NCBI GenBank assembly: GCA_017450645.1 | Contig: JAFSTE010000004.1 | Location: 1 to 38,674 of the forward strand | From: Eubacterium sp. | Lineage (GTDB): Bacteria; Bacillota; Clostridia; Oscillospirales; Acutalibacteraceae | Length of the DNA stretch: 38,674 nt | Reading direction: 5' to 3' | Shown: piece after piece, positions 30,002 through 38,674 of the stretch | How the letters are laid out: every line of letters starts with the position of its first letter | Numbering within the stretch: position 1 is the stretch's first letter | Notes under the pieces: generated by a model | What the model was told of the DNA's origin: nothing | Seen by the model: only the letters and a program-made list of their open reading frames with translations | Database searches by the model: none | Translations under genes and position numbers: made by a program

Positions 30002-33000
30002 ATGGTAAATGTGAAGGATGTTCAGCTCGGCACAACCACACGAAAAAGCTTTGCAAAAATCAACGAGGTTATGCAGATGCCTAACCTTATTGAAGTGCAG
30101 AAAAAATCGTATCAGTGGTTCCTTGACGAAGGTCTTAAGGAGGTATTCCGCGACATCGGCTCTATCACCGATTACACCGGCAATCTTGTGCTTGACTTCA
30201 TCGACTACTCAATGGACGACGAACCGAAGTATTCGATTATGCAGTGCAAGGCGAGGGATACCACCTACGCTAAACCCCTTAAGGTAACGGCAAGACTGCA
30301 GAATAAGGAAACGGGCGAGGTTAAGGAAAACACAATCTTTATGGGTGATTTTCCGCTTATGACCGAAGCCGGCACCTTTGTAATCAACGGTGCGGAGAGA
30401 TGTATCGTATCTCAGCTCGTCAGAAGCCCGGGCGTATATTATCATATGGAGCATGACAAGACCGGTAAGGAGCTTTACACCAATACCGTAATTCCTAACC
30501 GCGGCGCATGGCTCGAGTATGAAACCGACGCTAACGACCTGTTCTACGTAAGAATCGACAAGAACAGAAAGATATTTATCACTACCTTCCTTCGTTCCCT
30601 CGGTCTTTCCACCGATGAGCAGATTAGAGAGTTCTTCGGCGACGACGAGAGAATCGAGGCAACGATTGAAAAGGATACTACCAAGAATCAGGAGGAGGCA
30701 CTTCTTGAGGTTTACAAGAAGCTTCGTCCCGGCGAGCCGCCTACGCTCGAAACAGCTCAGGCTCACCTTGACGGCCTTTTCTTCGACGCTCACCGTTACG
30801 ACCTTTCGAGAGTCGGCAGATACAAGTATAACAAAAAGCTTGGTATTGCTGACAGACTTACGGGTCAGGTTGTATCTCAGCCTGTTGTATCACCTCTTGG
30901 CGAGGTGCTCGCAGACGAGGGCGAAAAGATTTCTGCCCAGAGAGCTAAGGAAATCGAGAATGCAGGTGTTATGTTTGCGTTCGTTCGTCTTGAAACAGGC
31001 GAAGAGGTTAAAATCGTATCAAACGGTATGGTTGATATCGAGAATTTCGTAGATGTTGACAAGAAGGCGCTCGGCATTAACGAGAAGGTGTCATACGCTG
31101 TTCTTTCCGAAATACTTGACAAATGCGGCGACGACAAGGCTGCACTTGAAGAGGAAATAAGAATTAAGCACGACGACCTTATTCCTAACCACATTATCGT
31201 TGACGATATTTTTGCAACCGTATCTTACCTTTGCAACCTTGCTAAAGGCGTTGGTACTACCGACGATATCGACCACCTCGGTAACCGTCGTATCCGCGCA
31301 GTAGGCGAGCTCCTGCAAAATCAGTTCAGAATCGGTTTCACCAGAATGGAGCGCGTTATCCGCGAGCGTATGACGCTTCAGGCTCAGGATGACGAGGAGG
31401 CTATCACTCCGCAGGCTCTTATCAATATCAGACCTGTAGTTGCTGCAATTCGCGAGTTCTTCGGTTCATCACCGCTGTCGCAGTTTATGGACCAGAACAA
31501 CCCGCTTGCAGAGCTTACGCACAAGAGGCGTCTTTCGGCGCTCGGTCCCGGCGGTCTTTCGCGTGACCGTGCAGGCTTCGAGGTTCGTGACGTACATTAT
31601 ACTCACTACGGAAGAATGTGTCCTATCGAGACACCTGAAGGACCTAACATCGGTCTTATTTCGTACCTCGCTTGCTACAGCCGTCTTAACGAGTACGGTT
31701 TCATTGAAGCTCCGTACCGTAAGATTGATAAAGAAACCGGCGTCGTAACCGACGAGGTTGTTTATATGACAGCCGATATGGAGGACGAGTTCGTTGTAGC
31801 ACAGGCTAACGAGCCGCTTGATGAAAACGGCAGATTTGCAAACAACAGAGTTACCTGCCGTTACCGCGACGAGTTCCTCACCAAGTCACCCGACGAGGTT
31901 GACTATATGGACGTATCGCCTAAGATGGTTGTATCCGTCGCAACGGCGATGATTCCGTTCCTCGAAAACGACGACGCAAACCGTGCTCTTATGGGTGCTA
32001 ACATGCAGCGTCAGGCTGTTCCGCTTCTTAAGACGGAAGCTCCCGTTGTCGGCACAGGTATGGAATACAAGGCTGCTTACGACTCAGGCGTTGTAGTTGT
32101 TGCTCAGCGCGGCGGTAAGGTTGTTGCTCTTGACGCTGACACTATCGAGATTCAGACTAAGGACGGCAGCATTGACAAGTACGAGCTTACAAAGTTTGCC
32201 GGCTCTAACCAGGGCACCTGCATTAACCAGAGACCTATCGTATCACTCCATCAGGAGATTATCGACGGACAGGTTATCGCGGACGGTCCTGCAACACAGG
32301 GCGGCGAAATCTCGCTCGGTAAGAACGCTCTTATCGGCTTTATGACCTGGGAGGGTTATAACTACGAGGACGCTGTTCTTATTAATGAAAAAATAGTACG
32401 CGACGATGTATATACTTCTATCCATATTATAGAACACGACCAGGAGGCTCGCGATACTAAGCTCGGCCCCGAGGAAATCACAAGGGATATCCCGAATGTT
32501 CCCGAGGACGCGCTTAAGGACCTCGACGAGGACGGTATTATCCGTATCGGCGCTGAGGTTAAGAGCGGCGACATCCTTGTCGGCAAGGTAACGCCTAAGG
32601 GCGAAACCGAGCTTACAAGCGAAGAAAGACTCCTTCGTGCAATCTTCGGCGAGAAGGCGAGGGAAGTCAGAGATACTTCGCTTAAGGTGCCTCACGGTGA
32701 GTACGGTATCGTTGTTGATGTCAAGGTATTCACAAGGGCTAACAGCGACGAGCTCGGCCCCGGCGTCAACAAGGTAGTAAGAGTATATATCGCACAGAAG
32801 AGAAAGATTCAGGCAGGCGACAAGATGGCAGGTCGTCACGGTAACAAGGGTGTTGTATCCCGTGTACTTCCTCAGGAGGATATGCCATTCCTTCCCGATG
32901 GCAGACCGCTTGACATCGTGCTTAATCCTCTGGGCGTACCTTCCCGTATGAACATCGGTCAGGTGCTCGAGGTACATCTCGGCTACGCTGCTAAGGCGCT

Positions 33001-33745
33001 CGGCTGGAAGATGATGACTCCTGTATTCGACGGCGCACACGAGGAGGATATCCGCGAGTGCTTAAAGCTTGCAGATATCGGTTACTATATTGACGAAAAC
33101 GGCAACAAGGTATTTGACGGTAAGACTCAGCTTATCGACGGCAGAACGGGCGAACCGTTTGATAACCGTGTAACAGTTGGTTATATGTATTACCTTAAGC
33201 TTCATCACCTTGTTGACGACAAGATGCACGCAAGGTCAACCGGACCGTACAGCCTTGTAACCCAGCAGCCGCTCGGCGGTAAGGCTCAGTTCGGTGGTCA
33301 GCGTTTCGGTGAGATGGAGGTTTGGGCGCTCGAAGCATACGGCGCAGCTTACACCCTTCAGGAAATTATCACCGTTAAGTCTGACGATGTTGTGGGCAGA
33401 GTTAACACATACGAATCAATCGTTAAGGGCGAAAATATTCCGCCTGCAGGTATTCCTGAGGCATTTAAGGTACTCTTTAAAGAGTTCCAGGCACTCGGTC
33501 TTGACACCCGACTTTATGATAAGCAGGGCGAAGAGATTGAGCTTAAGCAGGAGCTTGACGACGACGGTATTCAGCCTATTGACGAAAGCGCGTTCACCGA
33601 GGTCAACGATTTTGATAACGACACAGAGGGTTACGGATTTGTTGACGCAGAGGACGGTGACGAGGAAGCAGGTCAGGAGGACGACCTCTTTGCAAGCTTT
33701 GCAGACGCTTTTGCAGCGAGCGAAGATGACGACGAGGATTTCTAA
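30002..33745 (+). CDS. rpoB: RNA polymerase beta subunit
   Basis: The 1247 residues show the full beta-subunit pattern. The rifampicin pocket reads [19 protein letters not shown] then LSALGPGGL. The residues matching E. coli Asp516, His526 and Ser531 are Asp497, His507 and Ser512, all wild type. [11 protein letters not shown] (catalytic-centre contact) and the C-terminal [19 protein letters not shown] clamp segment are present. The last ~55 residues are a strongly acidic tail rich in Asp/Glu. GGAG lies 10 bases before the ATG. It forms an operon with rpoC. rplJ-rplL, usually just upstream in Firmicutes, are not here. Confidence 0.98.
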
Positions 33746-33784: not shown

Positions 33785-36700
33785 ATGGATAACAATACAA
33801 ACGATTTCAGTTCAATCAAAATCGGACTTGCTTCCCCCGAGCGTATCCGCGAATGGTCATACGGCGAGGTTACGAAGCCCGAAACTATAAATTACAGAAC
33901 ACTTAAGCCCGAACGCGACGGTCTTTTCTGCGAAAGGATTTTCGGTCCCATGAAGGACTGGGAGTGCCACTGCGGTAAGTACAAAAGAGTTCGCTATAAG
34001 GGTAAGGTCTGCGAGCGTTGCGGCGTTGAAATCACACGCGCTAAGGTACGCCGTGAGCGTATGGGTCATATCGAGCTTGCAGCTCCCGTATCGCATATCT
34101 GGTACTTCAAGGGTATCCCGAGCCGCTTGGGTCTTGTGCTTGACATCAGCCCGAGATATCTCGAAAAGGTGCTTTACTTTGCGCTTTACATCGTAACAGA
34201 CCCCGGCGATACTCCACTTGAGAAAATGCAGATACTCAACGAAAAAGAGTATGCCGAGATGCGCGAGAGATACGAGGACGACTTCGAGGCAGGAATGGGC
34301 GCAGAGTCTATTAAAAAGCTGCTTCAGGATATCGACATTGTACAGCTCAGAGACGAGCTTACCGAAGAGCTTGAAACCGCAACAGGTCAAAAGAGAGTTA
34401 AGCTCCTCAAGAGGCTTGATGTTGTAGACGCTTTCTACAACAGCGGAAATAAGCTCGAGTGGATGATTATGGATGTAATTCCGGTAATTCCTCCGGATAT
34501 CCGTCCTATGGTACAGCTTGACGGCGGACGCTTTGCGACCTCCGACCTCAACGACCTTTACAGACGAGTTATTAACAGAAATAACCGTCTTAAGAGACTT
34601 ATCGAGCTCAATGCTCCCGATATTATCGTAAGAAACGAAAAGAGAATGCTTCAGGAGTCCGTTGACGCCCTTATTGATAACGGCAGACGCGGAAGGCCTG
34701 TTACCGGACCTTCAAACCGTCCGCTTAAATCTCTTTCGGATATGCTTAAGGGAAAGCAGGGACGCTTCCGTCAGAACCTTCTCGGTAAGCGTGTTGACTA
34801 CTCCGGCCGTTCGGTTATTGTAGTAGGCCCCGAGCTTAAGATGTATCAGTGCGGTCTTCCTAAGGAGATGGCTATCGAGCTCTTCAAGCCGTTTATTATG
34901 AAGCGTCTTGTTGAGGTTGGCGTATCCTCTAACATCAAGTCCGCAAGAAAGATGGTAGAAAAAGCAGACCGCTCAGAGGTTTGGGACGCATTAGAGGTTG
35001 TAATTAAGGACCATCCCGTAATGCTCAACCGTGCTCCCACACTTCACCGTCTCGGTATTCAGGCATTTGAGCCCGTACTCGTAGAGGGCAGGGCAATCAA
35101 GCTCCACCCGCTTGCTTGTACAGCGTTTAACGCTGACTTCGACGGTGACCAGATGGCTGTCCATGTACCGCTTTCTGCAGAAGCTCAGGCAGAGGCAAGA
35201 ATGCTTATGCTTGCTGCTAATAACCTTCTTAAGCCGTCCGACGGTAAACCCGTTGCTGTTCCTACACAGGATATGGTTATCGGTTCATACTACCTCACCA
35301 TGATTAAAGAGGGTGAGGCTGGCGCACCGAGAACCGAAATTGTAGACGGCGAAGAAGTTACAAGATACAATATCTACCGCGACAAGGACGAGGCTATGAT
35401 GGCGTTCCAGGAAGGCTCGCTCGGTCTTCACTCCGAGTGCCTTATCCGCTTCACTAAGGAAGTTGACGGCGAAACAAAGTCAAAGCTTGTTAAGACCACA
35501 ATCGGTAGAGTAATCTTTAATAACCCCGTTCCTCAGGACCTCGGCTTTGTTGACAGAAGCCTGCCCGAGAACGAATTTGAGCTTGAAGTTTCCTTCGTAG
35601 TTAAGAAGGGCGGCCTTGGTAAAATCGTTGATAAGTGTATAAGAAAGCACGGCGTTGCGGTAGCTTCCCGTATGCTTGACGAGCTTAAGGCTCAGGGCTA
35701 TAAGTACTCTACAATTTCGGGTACAACAGTAGCCGTTATCGACGCACTTATCCCTGAAAAGAAAAAGGAATACCTTGCTGAGGCTGAGTCAAAGGTTGAC
35801 GAAATTACACTTCACTATAACTTCGGTGAAATCACTAACGAGGAGCGCTCACAGGCTGTTATCAAGGCTTGGGAAGAGTGCACCGACAAGGTTTCAAACG
35901 AGCTTACAAGTAACTTCGACGGTACTCACAACCCGATTCATATGATGGTAGACTCGGGTGCTCGTGGTAGTACATCACAGCTTCGTCAGCTCGCAGGTAT
36001 GCGCGGACTTATCGCTAATACCTCGGGTAAGACAATCGAGGTACCTATCCGTGCTAACTACCGTGAAGGTCTTAACATTCTCGAATACTTCATCTCCTCG
36101 CGCGGTGCGCGTAAAGGTCTTACCGATACAGCGCTTCGTACGGCTGACTCGGGTTACCTTACCCGTAGGCTTGTTGATGTATCACAGGATGTAATTATCC
36201 GTGATAACGACTGTAAGTGCCACGAGGGTATTGATGTATACGCTATTATGGACGGTAACCGTGTTCTTGAATCACTCGAGGACAGACTCGTCGGCAGATA
36301 TGTTGTTGAACCCGTTGTTCACCCCGAAACCGGCGAAGTTCTTATGGATACCGACAGAATTATGAACGAAGAGGATGCTCAGCGTATCGTTGAGGCAGGT
36401 ATCACTTCTGTTAAGATTCGTTCGCTCATCACCTGTAAGTCAAGAAACGGCGTATGCTGCAAGTGCTACGGTTCTAACCTTGCGTTTAACGAGCCGGTAC
36501 AGGTCGGCGAGGCTGTTGGTACTATCGCAGCTCAGTCAATCGGTGAGCCGGGTACTCAGCTTACAATGAGAACCTTCCACACCGGTGGTGTTGCAGGCGG
36601 CGAGGATATCACTCAGGGTCTTCCCAGAGTCGAGGAACTCTTCGAGGCTCGTAAGCCTAAGCAGCTCGCAATCCTTACCGAAATCGAGGGCGATGTTCGC

Positions 36701-37429
36701 TTTGAGGAAATCAAGAAGAGCCGCCATGTTGTTGTATATAATAACGAAACGGGCGACGAGAAGAAGTATCTTATCCCTTACGGCGCAAGACTTCACGAGA
36801 ATATCTTAGAAGGCGCTCATGTTGATAAGGGTCAGGAGCTTACTATCGGTTCTAAGAACCCGCACGATGTACTTGCTATTCTCGGTAAAGAGGCTGTATA
36901 TAATTACCTTATTAAAGAGGTACAGTTCGCATACCGTACACAGGGTGTTGATATCAACGATAAGCACATTGAGGTTATCGTTCGTCAGATGCTTAAGAAG
37001 TGTACCGTTGACGACGCAGGCAGCACAGACCTTATCGCAGGTACAATGGTTGATGTAAGCCAGGTAGACGAGGCTAACGACGAAGTAGATAAGCGTATTG
37101 CTGCGGGCGAGGAAGGTCTTACCCACGCAACATATATCCCGATTCTTATGGGTATTACAAAGGCTTCGCTTGCTACGGATTCGTTCCTTTCGGCAGCTTC
37201 ATTCCAGGAAACCACGAGAGTTCTTACCGACGCTGCAATCAAGGGCAAGAGCGACCCGCTTATCGGTCTTAAAGAAAATGTTCTTATCGGTAAGCTTATC
37301 CCTGCCGGTACTGGTATGGATATCTTCCGCGAGGTTGATGTCGTACCGAGCTACTTCTCGGCAGAGGGCAAGGAGGAAATCCTTAACCTCGAGCAGCTCC
37401 AGGAACTATTAACAAGTTCTATGGAATAG
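33785..37429 (+). CDS. rpoC: RNA polymerase beta' subunit
   Basis: The 1214 residues begin with the zinc-binding segment [20 protein letters not shown] (near 58-77), followed by the clamp. The catalytic NADFDGD motif is at 449-455 with the three magnesium aspartates. A second zinc site is seen around CKCHEG and [13 protein letters not shown], and the bridge-helix/trigger-loop region contains [23 protein letters not shown] precedes the ATG, 39 bases after rpoB. No terminator with a T-run was seen; type A hairpin repeats follow the stop. Confidence 0.98.
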
Positions 37430-37444
37430 AACTTAACCTTATGA

Positions 37445-37492
37445 CCTCCCTTGTCAAAGGGAGGGGGGACCGCTTGCGGTGGAGGGATGGTC
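37445..37492 (+). repeat. Interspersed repeat type A, first of a tandem pair
   Basis: CCTCCCTT-gtc-AAAGGGAGG, then CCGC-tt-GCGG and GGAGGGATGGTC. It starts 15 bases after rpoC; the second copy begins 72 bases later. Confidence 0.85.
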
Positions 37493-37516
37493 AAATATAA
37501 TCATCAATCCGTTTTG

Positions 37517-37564
37517 CCTCCCTTGCCAAAGGGAGGGGGACCACGAAGTGGTGGAGGGATGGTC
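37517..37564 (+). repeat. Interspersed repeat type A, second of a tandem pair
   Basis: Same as the first copy except that the second hairpin is CCAC-gaa-GTGG instead of CCGC-tt-GCGG: both arms changed together. Confidence 0.85.
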
Positions 37565-37599
37565 GTATAGTATAAGTAGACTTTAAACACCACATCTTA

Positions 37600-37660
37600 T
37601 AAGGCGATGACCACCCCTCTGTCACTATGTGACATCTCCCCTTAAAAGGGGCGACAAAAA
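37600..37660. repeat. Short type B repeat before the rpsL promoter
   Basis: GTCAC-tat-GTGAC (37621-37633) and CCCCTT/AAGGGG (37638-37651), preceded by GATGACCACCCCTCT as in the 28645 copy. Confidence 0.75.
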
Positions 37661-37683
37661 GGTTTGATTGATAAATATTGTGC

Positions 37684-37712
37684 TTGACAAAGTATTGTAA
37701 TCATTGTATAAT
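37684..37712 (+). promoter_or_regulatory. Consensus sigma-A promoter of rpsL
   Basis: TTGACA (37684-37689), 17 bases, TATAAT (37707-37712): both hexamers match the consensus exactly. It predicts a leader of about 200 bases. Confidence 0.92.
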
Positions 37713-37718
37713 ATTTAA

Positions 37719-37921
37719 TCGTGTCAGTGTGATTTTGTCGATTTTAACAAAATTTACACGAATTATTTGTACAAATCGCTATACAGAGTACGGCTCGTCC
37801 GTACTCTGTAGCGTTCGTATAAGTAAGGCTTCAAGCTTGTGGGCGGGACACCCGTACCCGATTATATTGAAACCTTACTTATGCGTACGACGCATAAATT
37901 TTACAGAAAGGAGATAAACTA
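37719..37921 (+). ncRNA. Structured rpsL leader with alternative hairpins
   Basis: Five paired regions are readable. P1: CGTGT/ACACG (37720-37760) with inner ATTTTGT/ACAAAAT. P2: TACAGAGTACGG-ctcgt-CCGTACTCTGTA (37782-37810), extended by CGC/GCG. P3: CGTATAAGTAAGG (37816-37828) with CCTTACTTATGCG (37873-37885), one wobble. P4: inside P3, CGGG-aca-CCCG with flanking GGG/CCC. P5: TTATGCGT-acg-ACGCATAA (37879-37897), 8 perfect pairs. P5 and P3 share 37879-37885, so they exclude each other. P5 ends 9 bases before the ribosome binding site GAAAGGAG. There is no terminator T-run, so control of translation or decay is more likely than attenuation. I do not recognise it as a named RNA family. Confidence 0.75.
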
Positions 37922-38341
37922 TTGCCTACCTTTAATCAGTTAGTTAGAACAGGACGCAAGTCCCTCGAAAAGAAGGCAAAAGCACCTGCACTTTTGAAGG
38001 GTCTTAACACTAAGAAAAATGTTATGACCGATAACGCTTCACCCCAGAAGCGCGGCGTTTGCACAGCAGTTAAGACAGCTACACCTAAGAAGCCTAACTC
38101 AGCACTTCGTAAGATTGCCAGAGTTCGTCTTACAAACGGTATGGAAGTATCTGCTTACATTCCCGGTGTTGGTCACAACCTTCAGGAGCACTCAGTTGTT
38201 ATGGTTCGCGGCGGTCGTGTAAAGGACCTTCCCGGTGTGCGTTACCACATCATCCGCGGCACACTCGATACTCAGGGTGTAACCGGCAGAATGCAGAGCC
38301 GTTCAAAGTATGGCGCTAAGAAGCCAAAGGTTAAGAAATAA
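37922..38341 (+). CDS. rpsL: 30S ribosomal protein S12, TTG start
   Basis: Decoding-centre protein of the small subunit. The 139 residues include [34 protein letters not shown] (Lys56/Lys57 match the streptomycin-determining region, wild type), and [20 protein letters not shown] followed by [12 protein letters not shown] with the conserved aspartate. The start is TTG 37922, with GAAAGGAG 8 bases ahead; the product from it begins exactly at the family N-terminus. It is transcribed from its own strong promoter and followed by rpsG after an unusually long 262-base gap. Confidence 0.97.
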
Positions 38342-38459
38342 TTGATTAAAATCCGGTTTAATTGCGAATTTGCACATTTTTCCGATTTGAAATTCAGGCG
38401 TATGTCTGCATCGAAAAAATGCACAACTTCATCAATTTTCCCATGATTTTAATTCAATT
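38340..38459 (+). promoter_or_regulatory. Long-range fold in the rpsL-rpsG spacer, part 1
   Basis: The outer arms AATTGATTAAAATC (38340-38353, overlapping the rpsL stop) and GATTTTAATTCAATT (38445-38459) pair with one bulged base. Nested inside, TGCACATTTTTCCGA (38371-38385) and TCGAAAAAATGCACA (38411-38425) pair at 12 of 15 positions. No T-run follows the outer stem. Confidence 0.6.
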
Positions 38460-38488
38460 ATTACAAACTTAAAAAACTAAACAGGACT

Positions 38489-38539
38489 AACAATAGTTTA
38501 TCTATTATATAGCTTTTAGCTGATAAATGACCTATTGTT
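38489..38539 (+). promoter_or_regulatory. Hairpin in the rpsL-rpsG spacer, part 2
   Basis: AACAATAG (38489-38496) pairs with CTATTGTT (38532-38539), and TTTATC (38497-38502) pairs with GATAAA (38522-38527), separated by a 4-base bulge (38528-38531). An inner AGCT-ttt-AGCT may close the top. It ends 64 bases before rpsG. Confidence 0.65.
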
Positions 38540-38603
38540 GGCTCCACGGAAAAACCGAGTACCTATGAACTCATATAAATTTTAATGAAGGAGGGAAGCG
38601 AAG

Positions 38604-38674
38604 ATGCCAAGAAGAGGTCAAATCGCTAAGCGTGATGTACTTCCGGACCCGCTTTACAACTCAAAGGTTGTAAC
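38604..38674 (+). CDS. rpsG: 30S ribosomal protein S7, 5' fragment
   Basis: The first 23 codons (MPRRGQIAKRDVLPDPLYNS, then KVV) are present and the window ends inside the gene. GAAGGAGGG lies just upstream of the ATG. S7 nucleates assembly of the 30S head, and in enterobacteria it represses its own operon by binding the rpsL-rpsG spacer. rpsL-rpsG order is standard. Confidence 0.95.
   Translation, partial: MPRRGQIAKRDVLPDPLYNSKVV

Follow-up and report, generated by a model that had tools for sequence, protein, structure and literature searches.

Does the leader of rpsL in this locus hold two mutually exclusive hairpins that evolution has kept, as an RNA switch would require, or do they compete only on paper? 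The locus lies at the end of the window, i.e., the whole stretch of DNA that was analysed (38,674 nucleotides of an Eubacterium sp. genome of the Clostridia). Its landmarks are the following.

30002-33745: rpoB, in the window
33785-37429: rpoC, the 5' neighbour of rpsL
37684-37712, + strand: promoter TTGACA-17-TATAAT, 12/12 consensus
37922-38341, + strand: rpsL (ribosomal protein S12) with a TTG start; Pfam PF00164, E 2.5e-36
from 38604: rpsG, read from the sequence

The perfect consensus promoter claimed in the first-pass annotation is thus found, and we infer a transcription start near 37719. The leader is predicted to be the 5' UTR of a ribosomal protein operon with its own promoter, the S12 gene lying directly downstream. 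rpsL was found in 55 of 63 genomes of the genus (at least 80% complete) and in 112 of 120 genomes of a family sample (at least 85% complete; two belong to the genus). This gave 121 distinct upstream regions, 58 from the genus and 63 from other genera. A promoter score of 11/12 or more is found in 55/58 genus leaders and 56/63 other-genus leaders; the genus leaders below that score are L022 and L115, whose contigs start too late, and the aberrant L125. The start codon of rpsL is TTG in 93 of the 121 regions. In the rpoC-rpsL spacer of the window (about 37443-37660), a CTCCCTTGYCAAAGGGAGGGGGACC...GGTGGAGGGATGGTC stretch is seen by eye in two near-copies, together with a similar one in reverse; from the end of the rpoC match to rpsL there are 288 bases in the relative L014 vs. 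495 in the window.

The leader contains the following elements, each given with its basis.

37721-37725, + strand: strand z, at the 5' end, with a possible partner at 37889-37893 (P0); predicted fold
37727-37759, + strand: hairpin P1, 37727-37738 with 37747-37752 and 37754-37759; predicted fold
37778-37780 with 37810-37812, + strand: extension of P2 (y:a); predicted fold
37783-37809, + strand: G+C-rich hairpin P2, 37783-37793 with 37799-37809; fold and covariation
37816-37828, + strand: 5' arm of P3, CGTATAAGTAAGG, whose lower end is strand a; covariation
37873-37885, + strand: 3' arm of P3, CCTTACTTATGCG, including strand b (37879-37885), common to P5; sequence, fold and covariation
37879-37897, + strand: hairpin P5, TTATGCGT-ACG-ACGCATAA, with strand c within 37890-37897; sequence and covariation
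37907-37933, + strand: Shine-Dalgarno AAAGG (37907-37911), able to pair with CCTTT (37929-37933, rpsL codons 3-4); predicted fold

The predicted fold of 37719-37940 has an energy of −73.9 kcal/mol vs. a shuffled mean of −46.4 (z −5.96; 0/200 shuffles as good). It pairs 58% of the 203 leader bases, so that the earlier statement that nearly every base can pair was too strong. P3 has 13 pairs, one of them G-U (37816-37828 with 37873-37885), and P5 has 8 perfect pairs and a loop of 3. Both helices lie where they had been placed and have seven bases in common, 37879-37885. Since both use strand b, the base of P3 and P5 are mutually exclusive.

Covariation was analysed on an alignment of 49 leaders (47 from the genus) out of 60, i.e., the 58 of the genus and 2 from other genera. 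The leaders left out are: (i) L022 and L115, whose promoters are cut by contig ends, the leader of L115 itself being complete; (ii) the aberrant L125, and L029, L069 and L123, without P3; (iii) L015, L016, L018, L019 and L104, with long inserts. RNAalifold recovers P2 and P3 de novo from these 49 leaders, with compensatory change in 25 of 29 pairs. In this structure 90.1% of the cells are paired vs. 72.3% after shuffling, and the covariation score is 0.554 vs. 0.231 (0/500 shuffles as good in both cases). Slid registers pair at most 56.7% of the cells; this is a soft control, because the structure derives from the same alignment.

For the two competing helices, 48 rows were used (L023 is gapped in strand b). 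The base of P3 is paired in 94.9% of the cells and has 15 two-sided cells vs. 2.4 in shuffled data; P5 is paired in 90.6% of the cells and has 19 vs. 5.6 (0/2000 for each). The number of pair types is unexceptional, 243 (P5) and 194 (base of P3) of 2000 shuffles being as high. Since P5 needs its downstream strand in register, strand c was anchored by a sequence-based rule, i.e., by the A-run after P5. It must be noted that this rule was revised once after the pairing counts of each row had been seen: the last AAAGG is taken and not the first, and AGAAT is allowed as the A-run. By this revision L036 and L071 came in, and L106 and L073 were shifted.

Kinship inflates covariation counts, and changes were therefore mapped by parsimony on a tree of rpoC, built from at most 160 codons of its 3' end (35 in the window's own row), several nodes of which have low support. 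Two-sided compensatory change is seen on 8 branches in P5, where the wrong-partner control gives no more than 1; the corresponding figures are 6 and 2 for the base of P3, 52 and 12 for upper P3, and 22 and 8 for P2. Some one-sided changes break a pair, 15 in P5 and 10 in the base of P3. An alignment-free duplex test on 48 leaders (L032, with N letters, being omitted) asked each strand to prefer its own partner to a foreign one: upper P3 has a z of −16.5, P5 −6.2, P1 −5.1 and the base of P3 −4.9. P2, P3 and P5 thus all covary across relatives, on which the first-pass annotation had staked its reading, and the leader has a secondary structure supported by covariation, as ribosomal protein leaders do. 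The support for P1 in the alignment is weak, with 59.8% of the cells paired vs. 54.9% shuffled (0/500) and 53.3% in the best slid register.

Other pairings were tried in the same duplex test. P0 (strand z with strand c), attractive in the fold, was rejected (z −1.3, 470/5000 permutations as good), and so was the pairing of the 5' end with strand b (z:b; z −0.9), own partners being no better than foreign ones. The pairings a:c, y:b and z:y and two other pairings of P1 give no advantage to the own partner.

The shared strand was then considered cell by cell. Both a and c are possible partners in 169 of the 192 shared cells. Where b has changed (28 cells), pairing is retained with a and c alike in 19 cells, with a alone in 3, with c alone in 1 and with neither in 5. 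The single c-only cell belongs to the window's own row, in which one shared position pairs with c and not with a; the five «neither» cells come only from L033, L039 and L108, divergent rows which fit the register of b poorly. Both competing shapes thus appear, from comparison of sequences, to be preserved by evolution: the rival helices are kept in most relatives of the genus, and the shared strand tracks both partners. Such conserved exclusive helices point to an RNA switch, and since both covary on the tree of another gene, the case rests on evolution and not on a drawing alone. By predicted energy the two states lie a median of 1.35 kcal/mol apart (quartiles −0.95 and 4.75, with some outlying rows), and the P5 state is favoured in 18/48 leaders.

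What would the two states do? On balance we lean towards the reading that the rpsL (str) operon has as its leader a two-state RNA, which sets translation initiation under feedback by a ribosomal protein. In the first state, strand a, i.e., the lower 5' side of P3, would pair with strand b and P3 would be complete. In the second, b would pair with the downstream strand c into P5, some 12 bases upstream of the ribosome binding site; the base of P3 would open and upper P3 could stay. The states would set the initiation of rpsL translation: P5 would block it, and P3 would leave strand c open as a landing ground for the ribosome. The TTG start and a Shine-Dalgarno that may pair with codons 3-4 would leave room for such control. 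A ribosomal protein of the operon would shift the balance as feedback, more probably S12 than S7.

The output was looked for at the ribosome binding site. P5 ends a median of 12 bases before the Shine-Dalgarno, which makes an effect on ribosome loading plausible. The predicted exposure of the Shine-Dalgarno is equal in the two states (mean unpaired 0.32 with P3 vs. 0.30 with P5, n=48). GAAAGG and ACCTTT occur together in 57/58 genus leaders vs. 18/63 leaders of other genera, in which the Shine-Dalgarno often differs (GAAAGG in 21/63) and ACCTTT is still common (44/63). That equal exposure fits a constitutive structured leader which serves the stability or the processing of the mRNA; P3 and P5 would then be folds reached one after the other during transcription, their balance being unregulated. 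The order of synthesis, which lets a:b form before c appears, and the close energies of the two states in many leaders agree with it as well. Nevertheless, covariation in two exclusive helices of 6-7 pairs over about 48 leaders exceeds what a passive leader would seem to need, and we regard this explanation as possible but doubtful.

A second alternative is transcription attenuation: P5 would act as a weak terminator hairpin, with P3 as antiterminator and the extended P2 (y:a) as anti-antiterminator. This is the three-step logic of the rplJL leader of B. subtilis (PMC4538822), and it is similar to that of the rpsL leaders described in PMC2965389. The extended P2 is conserved and is seen in the cross-species pairing when the subclasses are pooled (z −3.5, 3/5000 permutations as good); in the main class (35 rows), however, it is paired in 73.8% of the cells vs. 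74.5% shuffled, i.e., it does not covary, and the overlap of y:a with P3 is slight in the window itself. By a loose terminator rule of our own, 5/58 genus leaders qualify, four of them at P5, and 3/63 other-genus leaders have a terminator-like site. Against this, the 8 bases that follow P5 directly hold 2.6 T on average and 4 at most, so that none of 48 leaders reaches 5, and a terminator scan of 37430-38674 in the window found none. Without a U-tract at that place simple attenuation is disfavoured, and we consider attenuation rather unlikely in this leader. In other genera, the rpsL leaders L080 and L082 carry terminator-like hairpins with T-runs, so that attenuator-type rpsL leaders seem to exist in the family beside terminator-free ones. 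A more elaborate scheme, i.e., an exchange of up to four short strands during transcription, with S12 as the ligand and with neither a terminator nor direct masking of the Shine-Dalgarno, is to our mind distinctly unlikely.

The tip of P3 in the window raises a further question, since it is a copy of an interspersed repeat.

37841-37866, + strand: tip of P3, a copy of a 26-base interspersed repeat; genome-wide repeat count

The repeat, GGGYGGGACACCCNNACCCGATTATA, is found at 8 places in its own genome (up to 3 mismatches) vs. 0 for the reversed control, and it recurs in several related genomes; the observation covers 37841-37866 of the window and L002-L012. Some of the four other copies that were read are flanked by A+T-rich inverted arms. 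In the same loop of P3, L015, L016, L018 and L019 carry longer copies in both orientations. The P3 palindrome could hence be nothing but a mobile repeat inserted in the leader. Most relatives read, however, have a P3 tip without the repeat, and their P3 arms still covary; in L017, arms resembling those of the window surround a different loop. The arms thus exist without the repeat, by which this explanation is rejected as very improbable indeed. The four insert-bearing leaders are mutual nearest neighbours on rpoC, and there is no insert in L014, which of the genus sample matches the window's DNA best and is placed as its sister by the rpoC tree (with very low support). This suggests at least two insertions into one P3 loop, or one followed by loss. 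The rpsL leader L076, from another genus of the family, contains a long insertion, in which a similar GGGCGAGACACTCGC... repeat and inverted arms are seen by eye.

As for the distribution, P2, P3 and P5 with the same ribosome binding site are present, by alignment or by reading, in 54/58 genus leaders, i.e., the 47 aligned ones plus L015, L016, L018, L019, L022, L104 and L115. L029, L069 and L123 lack P3 and P5 and keep the promoter and the ribosome binding site, which makes them useful natural comparisons; L125 is unlike the other genus leaders and lacks the P2-P3-P5 architecture. The architecture is thus dispensable. Two other genera share it (L073, L074). The other-genus leaders differ and are mostly shorter, with a median of 107 bases (63 leaders) vs. 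196.5 in the genus.

A covariance model spanning P2 to the ribosome binding site was built from 42 of the 49 aligned rows. It matches 50 of 80 genus genomes, once each and always directly before rpsL by coordinates; 40 of these are training rows and match by construction. The ten others are G013, G022, G041, G043, G044, G045, G056, G066, G639 and G642. In L210 and L233, which are among these ten and stand in no alignment, P3 and P5 can be read directly in the sequence. Among the 30 genus genomes without a match, rpsL was not found in several, and others have inserts or lack P3; G005 and G053, rows left out of training, are missed by the model. In the family sample 6/300 genomes and 3/135 genera are matched; beyond the genus these are only two genera, both training rows. 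In the order sample 3/295 genomes are matched, one of them by chance. Stricter filters apply in the large searches and cost weak matches, so that a diverged relative could be missed. The match taken as chance, L209 (outside the family; E 9.2e-5), lies before a reading frame whose translation looks topoisomerase-like, and neither S12 nor RpoC was matched near it. A search for P3 and P5 by best complementarity in unaligned rows does not discriminate and was set aside save for L210 and L233: L029, L069 and L123, without P3, reach 5/6 for P5 and 5 to 7/7 for the base of P3, and L019 reaches only 4/6.

An exact search with the ribosome binding site and start of the genus gave 42 records, judged by their titles only: Eubacterium sp., Clostridia, Clostridiales, Ruminococcaceae bacterium etc., and one labelled Bacteroides sp. 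MAG opens 40 of the 42 titles. The leader, as judged from sequences, was found only in a genus of mostly uncultured Clostridia and in two other genera among those sampled in the family.

Which protein of the operon could be the ligand? The first-pass annotation had named S12 or S7. A separate, strongly conserved element lies downstream of rpsL.

38342-38603: conserved element between rpsL and rpsG, most conserved at about 38480-38603

GAGTACC and ATGAAGGAGGGAAG are present in 66/66 rpsL-rpsG loci (38 from the genus, 28 from other genera) and invariant across 41 aligned sequences. The exact pattern occurs in 4 of 398 genomes of a phylum sample, i.e., the window's own and three from other families of the same order; the sole other genome of the same family in that sample gives no exact match. 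No Rfam family matches the element at its gathering score (two weak matches on the other strand were set aside), and RNAalifold gives 8 pairs with no compensatory change. To our knowledge, autoregulation by S12 has no proven case. In E. coli, S7 is described as acting between rpsL and rpsG (PMC2704228, PMC10931766). The element found here is thus, on this analysis, a candidate S7 feedback site, and S7 is less likely for the 5' leader, since a separate conserved element sits where S7 acts in E. coli.

The leader was compared with known ones. With Rfam 15, no family reaches its gathering cut-off in the window or in 12 relative loci, and ten weak matches, all far below the gathering scores, were rejected. 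A literature search, to which most subscription journals were closed, gave no rpsL leader of this form, and none of the 20 leaders in Table 1 of PMC7247131 is for S12 or S7. The first-pass annotation knew of no named leader of this form for Firmicute rpsL; rpsL leaders with alternative structures have been published for other bacteria, Listeria included (PMC2965389). Section 8 of that paper calls the rpsL leader multiform, with no globally conserved sequence or structure, and the paper gives attenuators in the rpsL leaders of Listeria (a Firmicute), Xanthomonas, Pseudomonas and Rickettsia.

The likeness to known systems is partial in each case: (i) the rpsL attenuators of PMC2965389 have mutually exclusive pairings in the 5' leader of the same gene, as here, but are described as terminator/antiterminator pairs with a T-stretch, which is lacking after P5; (ii) the rpsL motif of Candidatus Pelagibacter is also a structured, lineage-restricted RNA between rpoC and rpsL, but is described as a bulged P1 leading into a three-stem junction, exclusive hairpins not being part of that description (PMC2704228); (iii) the rplJL leader of B. 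subtilis, bound by L10(L12)4, is likewise a ribosomal protein leader of a Firmicute built as a series of mutually exclusive helices, but as described it ends in an intrinsic terminator and belongs to another operon (PMC4538822); (iv) the S7 site of the E. coli str operon shares the operon and the feedback by a ribosomal protein (PMC10931766, PMC2704228), but is placed between rpsL and rpsG, whereas the leader here is upstream of rpsL. In mechanism, the rplJL leader as described is the closest.

Alternative structures in bacterial leaders are often drawn from a single sequence. The present leader adds to the known multiform rpsL leaders a form from Clostridia, limited to a genus, with comparative evidence of switching. 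Its analysis pinpoints the bases that mutants should target, and the repeats inserted at the P3 tip suggest what part of that helix the RNA can do without.
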